A DNA stretch of 64,000 bases, taken from positions 4,112,501 through 4,176,500 of the forward strand of contig NC_019748.1 in assembly GCF_000317575.1 (NCBI RefSeq), given 5' to 3'. The position numbers were made by a program, and so were the translations under genes. The first letter of the stretch is position 1, and each line of letters starts with the position of its first letter. This DNA is from Stanieria cyanosphaera PCC 7437. GTDB taxonomy: Bacteria; Cyanobacteriota; Cyanobacteriia; Cyanobacteriales; Xenococcaceae. The notes under the pieces were generated by a model. It did no database searches, was not told where the DNA came from, and worked only from the letters and a program-made list of their open reading frames with translations. Positions 545 through 54,076 of the stretch are shown here, piece after piece.

Positions 545-572
545 GTAGAGGCAATTCATGAATTGCCTCTAC
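545..572. repeat. 28-bp perfect palindrome, dispersed repeat family
   Basis: The half-arm GTAGAGGCAATTCA is followed immediately by its exact reverse complement. Related 28-bp palindromes lie at 23050-23077 and 42121-42148. It sits in the 283-bp gap between the protease tail and the first glycosyltransferase. I see no gene in that gap. Confidence 0.8.
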
Positions 573-22800: not shown

Positions 22801-22968
22801 CAAGCAAGAATCGATGAGATTAAGCATAATGCTCGCGAACAAGTCATTCAAGCCCGTAAAGCGACAGCAACTGCTGCTTGGTGGTTATTTGGTACAGCTT
22901 TGACTTCGGCTGGTGTGGCAGTGCTAGCTGGCGTTATGGCAATACGTGGTCTAGCTATATTTAGTTAG
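19873..22968 (+). CDS. Large membrane protein with about eight ~90-residue helical repeats
   Basis: 1031 residues. The N-terminus has a Pro/Thr-rich stretch (VPTPPTTPTPINPPPVTTLP) and then three hydrophobic segments up to residue ~150. From residue ~216 to ~965 there are about eight repeats. Their core reads YLR-x6-ELNPEGIKxDL, then a DP-x-AG turn, LRxRxSQFDRDTxxxLLSxR and EDxxExxxNxIIDxxxxxR; copies 4-8 are the most alike. The spacing is ~95-100 residues, and linkers are Gln/Glu-rich coiled coil. A final helix (WWLFGTALTSAGVAVLAGVM) ends the protein. Repeat copies share DNA stretches such as AAAGAAGAACTAAATCC, a sign of recent duplication. Architecture suggests a long rod tethered to a membrane at both ends; function is unknown to me. 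Confidence 0.85.
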   Translation: MFHNLEMMLGLYSTHFWLAKVRVPTPPTTPTPINPPPVTTLPFPVPQFFVALLAGVVIAFAFQFLLTNFTLAAGISAGANPLEAEAEETWGSKFQEVESKVGFWALITVNIALFIACFLAIKLTFINNISFAAITSIVIWSIFFLLLLWLSSKAIGSVVSSVVDTASSGMQGIGAIATTALSANAVNARVVNTVEESIGAVRRELTSAIDPTIVKDTVQDYLGNLKPSQLNLSEIRENFQDLLKNSDLQSISPDNLKNIDRQTFVNLVSSRTDFSKQDLNQIADQLEKVWQEVIGEQQQNSLLPELLNFLQKASPNELKSEQLNQKLNQLLEETNNQSTFTTQAMQLGLAKLIDTVLQRVDLSDVDGQKIIEQLQQLKDQGTEQVKQLTSSSSNPIRGDVEEYLLNSQPWHLNRETIKQEFKEVIYDPEAAPSLVRSQLEQLNRDDLVNILNQRDEFSSEQINELVDSLESIRQEVLSQVANAESEEKSQDLHSRVENYLRSTSKEELNPEAIERNFKTLLEDTDAGVEELSNRLSQFDHDSLKQLLSQTREDLNEEEIDQILNQLLSTRDRVNSEAQEMQEKAQFQAQELGQKVESYLRDTKKEELNPEGIKEDLKTLRDKPQAGIKALRERLSQFDRDTVVKLLSERGDLNEEEINQFIDRFEEIRDNLLHAPQMLAGKAQEQYEDVTSKIADYFRATNLEELDPDSIKQDLQQLFDDPQQGTKALRERFSHLDRETLTKLLSQREDLSEEQVNQYIDRVQAAIQGIVKTPRRLASRTQKQIQDWQSSFENYLRSTNKEELNPEGIKRDLQTLLKEPGTGLSQISDRLSEIDRDTVVALLSQREDISEAEANEIVERIDSVRHQLLEQFQAIQQQAQSAIEGTFDKIRNYLNSLERPELNYDGIKQDLEKLFSDPEAGVDALRDRASQFDRDTIVALLSSREDISEQDVNRIIDQVESVRDRFLNRLERIQQKTQARIDEIKHNAREQVIQARKATATAAWWLFGTALTSAGVAVLAGVMAIRGLAIFS

Positions 22969-23049: not shown

Positions 23050-23077
23050 GTAGGGGCAACTTGTGAGTTGCCTCTAT
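23050..23077. repeat. 28-bp palindrome family member (imperfect)
   Basis: GTAGGGGCAACTTG is followed by TGAGTTGCCTCTAT. The two halves pair over the full length with three G-T positions, i.e. wobble pairs in RNA. Same family as 545-572 and 42121-42148. It lies in the 414-bp gap before modA. Confidence 0.7.
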
Positions 23078-23265: not shown

Positions 23266-23303
23266 ATGCAAGTATTTTTGCGTAATGTATTATATACTTG
23301 CAT
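23266..23303. promoter_or_regulatory. 10-bp inverted repeat upstream of modA
   Basis: ATGCAAGTAT (23266-23275) and ATACTTGCAT (23294-23303) are exact inverted copies 18 bp apart, 80 bp before the modA start. TATATA-type promoter-like sequence lies at the right arm. It could be the operator for the XRE-molybdate regulator at 28402, or a leader hairpin. The same arms are not repeated elsewhere in the window as far as I can see. Confidence 0.45.
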
Positions 23304-41450: not shown

Positions 41451-42566
41451 CTAATTAAAATTGGCAATTACCTGCTTTAAAGCTTGAATTAGATTTTGAT
41501 TTTCTGGTGACGAACGAACTGCAATACGAAAATAGCGATCGCGAAGTTCGGGAAAACTCAAACAGTCTCTAATTAAAATTTGATAATTTTTTAATAATTT
41601 TTCTTGCAATTGAGAACTAGGAATGTTTGTTTCTACTAGTAAAAAATTAACTGCGCTTGGTAAGGGTTGTAATTGAGGAATCTTGTTTAACCCTTCAAAT
41701 AATTCTGCCCTAGCTGCAGGTAACCAACGCCAAGTTTGTTGTTGAAAATCGACATCTTGAATAATTGCTTTGGCTGCACATTCAGCTAAAATATTGACTG
41801 ACCAAGGATCGCGCCAAGTTTGCCAGCGTTGTAATCTTTGAGGATGAGCGATCGCATAACCAATTCTTAAACCAGGTAAACTGTAAAACTTAGTTAAGGA
41901 ACGTAAAATCACTAAATTGGGATAATCCTTAACCAAACTAATTAAACTCTGATCTTTCTCTGGCGGTAAAAAATCCATAAATGCCTCATCAATTACCACC
42001 AAAGCAAATCGGTCTAATAAAGGCACAATTTCTTCCCTGCGCCACAGTTTTCCCGTTGGATTATGCGGATTGTTTAACAATAATCCTGATGGTTGATTGG
42101 TAGGGGCAAATTGCCCATTTGTAGGGGCGATTCGCGAATCGCCCCTACAGGGTAATGCGTTCGATAAATCCCCATCCCAAGAATCAAATAAACAACAAGA
42201 GAATACCTTAGTATCAAAAGCCAAAAGCGATCGCTTGTAATCCCCAAACGCAGGAGTAATTAAATAAGTAACAGATAAATCAGCTAATTCTCGACTAGCC
42301 CAAGTAAGCAACTCTGCCGAACCATTACCAGGAAGCACATAATCTGGCTCAATTTGATGATAATCAGCCAAAATTGCTCTTAATTCAGCATAATCTGGAT
42401 TGGGATAGCTTTTTAATAAATTAAGACCTTGTTGAATTGCTGCCAGCGCACTCTGAGGAGGGCCCAGAGGATTAATACTGGCAGAAAAATCTACAATGGA
42501 AAAAGCCGGACAGCCCGCGATCGCTGCTGCCCAAGCTAAATTTCCACCATGTCGAGGTCTTGCCAA
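41451..42566 (-). CDS. CobD-like PLP-dependent aminotransferase/threonine-phosphate decarboxylase
   Basis: 371 residues, class I/II aminotransferase fold. RHGGNLAWAA and DFSASINPLGPP are the N-terminal hallmarks of CobD/CobC; NNPHNPTGKL, VVIDEAFMDFLP and SLTKFYSLPGLRIGY (PLP-binding Lys) are the core motifs. CobD decarboxylates L-threonine phosphate to aminopropanol phosphate for the cobalamin side chain; histidinol-phosphate aminotransferase is the close alternative. Residues ~139-157 (PCRGDSRIAPTNGQFAPTN) are extra and are encoded by a palindromic repeat and a truncated copy at 42100-42148. The start is 19 bp after hup. Confidence 0.82.
   Translation of the reverse strand: MARPRHGGNLAWAAAIAGCPAFSIVDFSASINPLGPPQSALAAIQQGLNLLKSYPNPDYAELRAILADYHQIEPDYVLPGNGSAELLTWASRELADLSVTYLITPAFGDYKRSLLAFDTKVFSCCLFDSWDGDLSNALPCRGDSRIAPTNGQFAPTNQPSGLLLNNPHNPTGKLWRREEIVPLLDRFALVVIDEAFMDFLPPEKDQSLISLVKDYPNLVILRSLTKFYSLPGLRIGYAIAHPQRLQRWQTWRDPWSVNILAECAAKAIIQDVDFQQQTWRWLPAARAELFEGLNKIPQLQPLPSAVNFLLVETNIPSSQLQEKLLKNYQILIRDCLSFPELRDRYFRIAVRSSPENQNLIQALKQVIANFN
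42100..42148. repeat. 28-bp perfect palindrome plus truncated copy inside the cobD-like gene
   Basis: 42121-42148 consists of GTAGGGGCGATTCG and its exact reverse complement. 42100-42117 is a partial copy (GTAGGGGCAA then TTGCCC). The insertion keeps the reading frame of the host gene. Relatives: 545-572 and 23050-23077. Confidence 0.85.
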
Positions 42567-52994: not shown

Positions 52995-54076
52995 TGAGTC
53001 ATCCCTATACAGCGGTGCTAATTGTTCCTACGGGAGTAGGGGCTGCGATTGGAGGTTATGCAGGAGATGCTTTACCTGTAGCAAGAGCTATGGCTCAAGT
53101 TTGTGATCGCGTTCTGACTCATCCTAATGTCCTGAATGGCGCACAATTGTATTGGTCGATGGACAATACTTATTATGTCGAAGGTTATGGCTTGGATCGG
53201 TTTGCTGCTTCTAATTGGGGATTGCAACCTGTCCACCAAAATCGCATAGGATTGTTGCTAGATCGAGGAATTGAGACAGAATTACGCCTGCGTCATCTTC
53301 AGGCAGCCGATGCAACTAGAGCAACTTTGGGACTAAATCTAACTGATTACGTAGTCACTGATGCGCCTCTAGAAGTTCAATTACGCACCGCTGCTTCGGG
53401 AGCAAGTTGGGGAACGATTGGCAATCCAGCCAGTTTGTTACGAGGAGCAGAAAAACTAATTCGTCAGGCAGGAGCAAATGCGATCGCAGTTGTAGCTCGA
53501 TTTCCTGATGAGCAAGAAAGTTTAGCTTTAAATAATTATCGTCATGGCGCAGGAGTAGACCCCTTAGCAGGAGCAGAAGCCGTTATTTCTCATTTATTAG
53601 TACGTCAGTTTCAAATTCCCGCAGCCCACGCACCTGCTTTAAATCCTTTACCTTTAGAACCTAATTTATCCCCCCGTGCAGCAGCCGAAGAATTGGGTTA
53701 TACTTTTCTGCCTTGTGTTTTAGTAGGATTATCACGCGCACCTCAATTTGTCACTCCTCAAAAGTCAACTTCAGCACGAACATCACCAGCCCTAGAAGTT
53801 TCTGCAACAATCTGGGCAAATCAAGTAGATACGGTAATCGTACCTGCTAGTGCTTGTGGTGGTAGTGCTATACTCAGTTTTAGTGGCACGTCAACTCAAA
53901 TTATTGCTGTAGAAGAAAATACTACTCAAATGCAAGTTCCTCCTGAACCATTGGGAATCAAAGCAATTAGAGTAAACTCTTATTTAGAGGCTTTAGGGAT
54001 TGTAGTAGCCCATCGTGCTGGTATTAATGCCGATGCCCTCCGTCCTTCGTTATCATCTCTTCGTTGTTTAGCTTAA
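52994..54076 (+). CDS. DUF3326 family protein
   Basis: 360 residues from GTG 52994. It has the family's conserved segments as I recall them: LIVPTGVGAAIGGYAGDALP, NVLNGAQLYWSMDNTYYVEG, GIETELRLRHLQAADATRAT, AIAVVARFPD and the C-terminal VVAHRAGINADALRPSLSSL. The family is found in cyanobacteria and plastid-bearing algae/plants and has no assigned function to my knowledge. The Gly-rich loops suggest nucleotide or phosphate binding. It is coupled to the small gene upstream and followed by a CPBP protease gene after 4 bp. Confidence 0.8.
   Translation: MSHPYTAVLIVPTGVGAAIGGYAGDALPVARAMAQVCDRVLTHPNVLNGAQLYWSMDNTYYVEGYGLDRFAASNWGLQPVHQNRIGLLLDRGIETELRLRHLQAADATRATLGLNLTDYVVTDAPLEVQLRTAASGASWGTIGNPASLLRGAEKLIRQAGANAIAVVARFPDEQESLALNNYRHGAGVDPLAGAEAVISHLLVRQFQIPAAHAPALNPLPLEPNLSPRAAAEELGYTFLPCVLVGLSRAPQFVTPQKSTSARTSPALEVSATIWANQVDTVIVPASACGGSAILSFSGTSTQIIAVEENTTQMQVPPEPLGIKAIRVNSYLEALGIVVAHRAGINADALRPSLSSLRCLA

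Follow-up and report, generated by a model that had tools for sequence, protein, structure and literature searches.

Among the repeats described so far, repetitive extragenic palindromes (REPs) with a GTAG tag most closely resemble a palindrome carried in frame by the cobD gene of the cyanobacterium Stanieria cyanosphaera PCC 7437, located at 41451-42566 of the 64,000-nucleotide stretch analyzed here (contig NC_019748.1, positions 4,112,501 to 4,176,500; hereafter the window). GTAG REPs as surveyed by Di Nocera et al. (2013, PMC3733652) share with it the GTAG tag, the palindromic stem, the dispersed distribution, the occurrence in cyanobacteria and, in some cases, a position in frame within genes. 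The cyanobacterial families in the portions of that survey drawn on here are GTAG-12, -15 and -16, the terms "cobD" and "cobalamin" are absent from its main text, and different REPs are described there near the same site of the homologous recB genes of two Xanthomonas. Double-foot REPs are also treated by Quentin et al. (2018, PMC6006769) together with REP-associated tyrosine transposases (TnpA-REP or RAYT) of subclass 2.4, which is abundant in Cyanobacteria. This article reports insertion in transposase genes and mentions other in-gene insertion; in the portions drawn on here, neither CobD nor a shared landing loop is described. REPs inside genes, REPs in transposase genes and two REPs at about the same recB site are already in print (PMC3733652, PMC6006769). 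What differs here from the cases in PMC3733652, as far as the portions of that survey drawn on here go, is that a single enzyme loop has been hit again and again across many genera, and by several kinds of repeat unrelated to one another.

The Rickettsia palindromic elements RPE-1, RPE-4 and RPE-6 are likewise palindromic and sit in frame in many unrelated proteins, but they stem from a different phylum and are either CGTC-tagged (RPE-4, RPE-6) or longer (RPE-1); for CGTC repeats, the portions of the survey drawn on here report no association with a transposase (PMC3733652). The cobD element, with its GTAG tag and 28 bp, has neither the CGTC tag nor the RPE-1 length and was not assigned to this group. 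An open-licence literature search covering CobD and repeats, repeats in cyanobacterial coding loops and cyanobacterial in-frame palindromic or small dispersed repeats showed no paper on the CobD loop among those listed. Cyanobacterial short tandemly repeated repetitive sequences (STRR), known mainly as intergenic repeats, resemble heptamer and octamer arrays in the CobD loops of other species; they are not palindromic and are not the element of the window.

We consider it very probable that in S. cyanosphaera a GTAG double-foot REP has been taken into a length-tolerant loop of cobD, and that this loop is a recurrent sink for repeats across cyanobacteria.

A palindrome with GTAG feet in the cobD reading frame

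As far as profile and fold comparison can tell, the gene product is CobD, as the initial annotation ("cobD-like") had supposed: it scores 311.5 bits against TIGR01140 (cut-off 290.55), and its best fold matches are the Salmonella enterica CobD structures 1lc7, 1lkc, 1lc8 and 1lc5. The CobD of a second species of the genus (G001; the genome of the window is G000) is 91% identical across query residues 1-371, and T225-K226-F227, which we take to be the motif holding the lysine that binds pyridoxal phosphate (PLP), is invariant across 52 sequences.

The 28-mer at window positions 42121-42148, GTAGGGGCGATTCGCGAATCGCCCCTAC, is palindromic in 14 of 14 pairs; with the flanking T/A included (TGTAGGGGCGATTCGCGAATCGCCCCTACA) the arms reach 15 bp (Table 1). 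At up to three mismatches it has a single match in the window and none in 100 shuffles. Together with a truncated second copy it accounts for codons 140-156 of cobD, and the 371-aa frame on the minus strand runs through both units uninterrupted, so that the placement of a perfect and a truncated copy in an open coding frame agrees with the initial annotation. The same applies to base composition: the G+C content of the 28-mer is 64%, that of the gene 39% and that of the whole window 36%. The palindrome can be read through in two of its three frames; the third runs into the TAG of GTAG. The element begins with 5' GTAG and ends with the reverse complement CTAC (GTAGGGGC...GCCCCTAC), has a palindromic stem and is dispersed in many copies in both genomes of the genus; by these features it fits a GTAG double-foot REP of the TnpA-REP/RAYT subclass 2.4 type.

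Dispersed copies and RAYT-like genes

Copies were counted by pattern searches and in the stretches around the matches, a census that misses imperfect copies beyond the patterns. The pattern GTAGRGRCN{6,20}GYCYCTAC yielded 36 copies in G000 and 26 in G001 (reversed-pattern control, 0 and 0), and TAGGGGCN{4,34}GCCCCTA was present in 23 of 27 genomes of the family (control, 0 or 1 each). Among the listed copies of the latter pattern the inner cores vary yet mostly stay complementary. An occurrence of GTAGGGGC at window position 53036 lies inside an open reading frame (ORF) without a palindrome and was taken as chance.

The expectation that all other copies would be intergenic did not hold. Most copies in G000 do lie outside genes, but six of the 36 pattern copies were judged internal and in frame in family-supported proteins, and a pattern search of the genome for further in-gene copies, as proposed initially, was accordingly positive: apart from cobD they reside in genes for a nonribosomal peptide synthetase (NRPS; L139), IleS (L242), two polyketide synthases (PKSs; L249, L256) and a RAYT-like protein (L158). 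Other copies in G000 sit at the ends of genes (L146, TyrA-like; L255, aminotransferase) or within small ORFs (L253, 97 aa; L263, 83 aa), and three further imperfect ones lie in one PKS ORF (L142). Both open frames are used by in-gene copies, giving peptides of the RGDSRIAPT and of the VGAIRESPL type. The NRPS copy of G001 (L285) is at the same place as that in G000.

The ileS gene (TIGR00392, 1034 bits) carries its in-frame REP at L242:1801-1828 (G000:C1:78580-78607), encoding VGTIHELSLQ, and bchH/chlH (magnesium chelatase subunit H) of G001 has one at L282:1801-1828 (G001:C1:1981290-1981317), encoding VETRYIASLQ. The PKS genes L142 and L249 harbor different REP types in the same acyltransferase (AT) loop (L249:1812-1839), and L142 and L256 likewise have different types at the same linker between ketosynthase (KS) and AT (L256:1803-1830); the PKS acyltransferase loop and KS-AT linker may be another recurrent landing site. 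An imperfect REP immediately upstream of the conserved pyrB portion (L143:2087-2117; G000:C1:2610086-2610116) is probably situated within a mis-extended N-terminus or leader.

With regard to a possible source of mobility, G000 contains 17 Y1_Tnp matches, two of which fall in longer RAYT-like proteins (L158, L159). Both genes have a REP just upstream and an in-frame REP inside, after the HuH motif, the inner copy of L159 being slightly degenerate. The RAYT-like gene L292 of G001, met by chance beside a REP, is flanked by related REPs upstream and downstream, a downstream copy being visible for L159 too. The inner in-frame copy of L292 is identical to the cobD 28-mer, and the peptide CRGDSRIAPT is common to CobD and a RAYT-like protein. 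GTAG double-foot REPs are thus associated with RAYT-like genes in both genomes; their cores are related within one such gene and different between genes, and the GTAGGGGC core occurs with neither L158 nor L159, the two examined of the 17 Y1_Tnp matches in G000. The motifs listed for subclass 2.4 are NH[IFV]H, WQ and YIxNNP (PMC6006769). L158 and L159 contain NHIH, WQ and YI.NNP; L292 has NHLH, one position off the listed set. REPs inside RAYT genes have been described before (PMC6006769), and we claim no novelty for them. RAYT relatives were found in only five records of a plasmid collection and one of a phage collection.

Table 1. Location of the cobD gene, its loop and REP units, and related features (window positions unless a locus is named).
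Feature	Position	Strand	Basis or remarks
cobD, threonine-phosphate decarboxylase (PLP aminotransferase fold), 371 aa	41451..42566	-	ORF; TIGR01140 above cut-off; PF00155; fold matches
Hypervariable loop flanked by PAFGDYKRSL and NNPHNPTG, residues 115-164	42075..42224	-	192 distinct CobDs; least certain stretch of AlphaFold model
Perfect palindrome (28-bp GTAG double-foot REP and one flanking T/A)	42120..42149		Minus-strand translation CRGDSRIAPT
Truncated second REP unit GTAGGGGCAAATTGCCC	42100..42116		Left foot kept, right foot gone; own small hairpin predicted
REP of the same architecture, perfect, GTAGAGGCAATTCATGAATTGCCTCTAC	545..572 (G000:C1:4113045-4113072)		Outside listed ORFs; nearest listed ORF of at least 90 aa starts at 621
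Decayed intergenic copy GTAGGGGCAACTTGTGAGTTGCCTCTAT	23050..23077		Between ORF ending at 22968 and ORF starting at 23266
RAYT-like genes	L158:1073-1713; L159:1033-1695; L292:4330-5039		REP upstream and REP in frame inside

The hypervariable CobD loop and its repeats

CobD loci were compared in steps, 30 at first, then 128 of 136; a further 80 named loci brought the total to 216, of which 208 could be parsed, giving 192 distinct CobDs. The sampling favored close or best matches, one batch was chosen partly for longer genes, and the rows are related by descent. Between PAFxDYxRxL and NNPHNPTG, CobDs are highly variable in length as well as in sequence, the loop measuring at least 84 and at most 258 nt (median 126 nt) in the 192 distinct genes. 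It is read in one frame at the 208 loci handled by the parser and, by inspection, at seven of the eight missed ones, one being without a clear reading; nine of ten loci that failed one of two parsers read through in one frame, the remaining one (L131) having no clear reading. Phase variation of cobD via slippage in 7- or 8-nt arrays, which was considered, finds no support in these loci. In the AlphaFold model of the window CobD (mean pLDDT, the predicted local distance difference test, 92.4) residues 121-160 are least certain (block means 59-78), and the N-terminal ten residues have an average of 78 as well. In the Salmonella enzyme, a gap of 13 residues faces the repeat-bearing loop.

The initial annotation had suggested that the repeat added a surface loop of about 19 residues. 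What stands is that a dispersed palindromic repeat resides in frame within a loop of low model certainty that faces a gap in the Salmonella enzyme. That the repeat made this loop has to be given up, since homologues without a recognizable repeat have loops of 84 to more than 150 nt at the same place; judged from these homologues, the repeat did not create it. The estimate of 19 residues is matched by L021, whose loop is the shortest that could be parsed in genus g8 of the family (93 nt vs. 150 nt in G000), but not within the genus, where the loop of G001 is only 21 nt (7 residues) shorter and keeps, by our reading, the palindrome in decayed form (22 of 28 positions identical, 8 of 14 pairs left). 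The peptide at this site is GNSPIVPT, unlike CRGDSRIAPT. The relic presumably goes back to the same insertion as the palindrome of G000. The same loop built of unrelated DNA in distant cyanobacteria, a finding at odds with the initial annotation, is very nearly what we observed; yet many of these unrelated loops hold other repeats.

Tandem Repeats Finder (TRF) detected 75 arrays in the 25,224 nt of loop sequence, spread over 54 of the 192 genes, and 57 in the rest of the gene (183,225 nt), which is seven times as long. At scores of at least 50 the ratio was 32 to three, all three within the terminal 100 nt of cobD, and at scores of at least 60 it was 25 to one. Periods are divisible by three in just 10 of the 75 loop arrays vs. 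32 of 57 outside, which makes most loop arrays unlike ordinary coding repeats; 64 of the 75 have periods of 7, 8 or multiples up to 24, and arrays of heptamers and octamers such as TGGGGAC, GTCATTG and CCCCTACA occur in the loops of other CobDs. Perfect inverted repeats (arms of at least 8, spacer of at most 8) number 17 in the loop and 23 outside, an odds ratio of 5.4 by length, several of the 17 not being REPs and lying on or close to the conserved edge of the loop. Given kinship and non-random sampling, these figures describe a pattern and not a calibrated probability. The 3' end of cobD is a second, weaker repeat sink, its last 100 nt holding 15 of the 57 non-loop tandem arrays (e.g., L119, coding sequence positions 1111-1147).

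Sixteen repetitive-looking, hand-picked loops were joined and searched against their 16 source genomes, and eight of them plus two more were searched again. Among the matches listed, 12 of the 16 have copies elsewhere in their own genome (G175, G252, G233, G013, G048, G179, G037, G002, G051, G021, G017, G008). In G175 and G233, loop stretches of about 55-120 nt are repeated at numerous sites of the genome, and in G252 at three sites among those listed; for G179 and G021 a single match each is listed (E-values 1.5e-8 and 1.6e-4, respectively), and the G002 copies correspond to a C-rich stretch of the loop rather than to its palindrome. Control segments of equal length, taken 40 codons past the start of NNPHNP in eight loop-positive genomes, recurred in their own genome in none of the eight cases.

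Within family f1, GTAG REPs are found at three points of the loop: directly after the KI..C motif (G008, G017), farther on (G015, G019, both decayed) and latest in G000. In a loop-free protein tree, members of genus g8 with a REP, a decayed REP, a 34-nt tandem or a repeat-free loop are intermixed, the internal order being weak. The three positions and the mixed tree point to several insertion events, without a firm count. On balance, and with modest confidence, we lean toward the view that this one CobD loop captures short repeats resident in the genome (REPs, palindromes of other kinds and tandem repeats with non-triplet periods) across cyanobacteria, with fast turnover and differences even within a genus.

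Origin of the repeat and alternative explanations

A tolerated insertion is most likely. A GTAG REP would have entered the cobD coding sequence in an ancestor of the genus, at a loop where changes in length are tolerated. Insertions that shifted or stopped the frame would have been lost, whereas open ones would have been retained, free to drift and decay, the retained repeat now contributing CRGDSRIAPT and an incomplete second unit to the protein. Mobilization of the REP was probably due to a RAYT, and its insertion was presumably neutral or near-neutral for the enzyme. In this the strain is not exceptional: different lineages have taken short repeats that also occur elsewhere in their own genomes, be it REPs, other palindromes or heptamer and octamer tandems, into the same loop.

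A number of observations weigh against this picture. L158, L159 and L292 score 64.1, 66.4 and 60.9 bits against NF047646 (REP_Tyr_transpos), below its cut-off of 80; the E-values of 1e-16 to 1e-18 nonetheless indicate relatedness. Movement of the element was in no case observed, and the decayed relic in the sister species G001 implies that the insertion event is old. The p-value for enrichment of tandem arrays (1e-33) is too small, the rows being related by descent and sampled non-randomly. Among the matches listed, four of the 16 hand-picked loops have no own-genome copy (G043, G081 and G197 with the self match only, G118 with its own range matched only within the loop itself), and the REPs in G015 and G019, which are decayed and were recognized by eye, have no match in their own range. 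Of 16 loops drawn at random from the remaining 110 parsed ones, G000 and G001 being left out, just two have own-genome copies (G165, G146), and most loops are without a demonstrable repeat. Tandem arrays, finally, could have arisen by local slippage instead of insertion.

This last point leads to the alternative that survives best, namely that the loop is merely relaxed and drifting in composition and that slippage makes the arrays without any inserted element. The prevailing periods of 7 and 8 and their multiples, extendable by slippage, and the scarcity of own-genome copies among the random loops are in its favor, and slippage may well have lengthened arrays once a seed was present. As the whole explanation it is nevertheless improbable, because the palindromes are whole elements dispersed in dozens of copies and the long recurring loop stretches of G175, G233 and G252 are beyond slippage.

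We regard it as highly unlikely that the palindrome is kept as an mRNA hairpin regulating cobD by attenuation, pausing or stability. The transcript segment of G000 is predicted to fold at -29.9 kcal/mol (z -5.7), the corresponding segments of G008 and G017 reach z -5.4 each and that of G015 a moderate -3.4, and RNA roles have been proposed for REPs (PMC3733652). On the other hand, the segment of G001, with only 8 of 14 pairs left, attains only -3.9 kcal/mol (z -0.5), so that the same-genus copy no longer folds, a long inverted repeat is absent from most homologous loops, and the position of the REP within the loop varies between lineages; as main explanation the hairpin was set aside. That the inserted peptide was selected because it lends the enzyme a new function, e.g., as a contact or regulatory site, has only a slender chance of being correct. 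The sharing of CRGDSRIAPT by CobD and a RAYT-like protein and the presence of the insertion or its relic in both species of the genus seen would agree with it, but this peptide simply results from reading the palindrome in one of its two open frames, both of which are used by in-gene copies, G001 has a different peptide, and the loops of other species are unrelated. An artefact in the form of a misassembled frame or an ORF that is not a real gene is practically negligible, since the only hint of it is the TTG start assigned by the automatic ORF call and the full-length similarity to the G001 gene, the TIGR01140 score and the invariant T225-K226-F227 oppose it.

Different repeats occupy the same CobD loop in many cyanobacteria, which suggests that the insertion of repeats into genes is not scattered by chance alone. 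The presence of a REP within an ORF, as in cobD and also in ileS, NRPS and PKS genes, is by itself no evidence of a pseudogene. As a capture site, CobD would constitute a natural record of repeat invasions and a route from non-coding repeats to new protein segments. Whether bacterial short repeats supply such segments, and whether these are neutral, thereby becomes testable by means of sequence data and simple enzymology.
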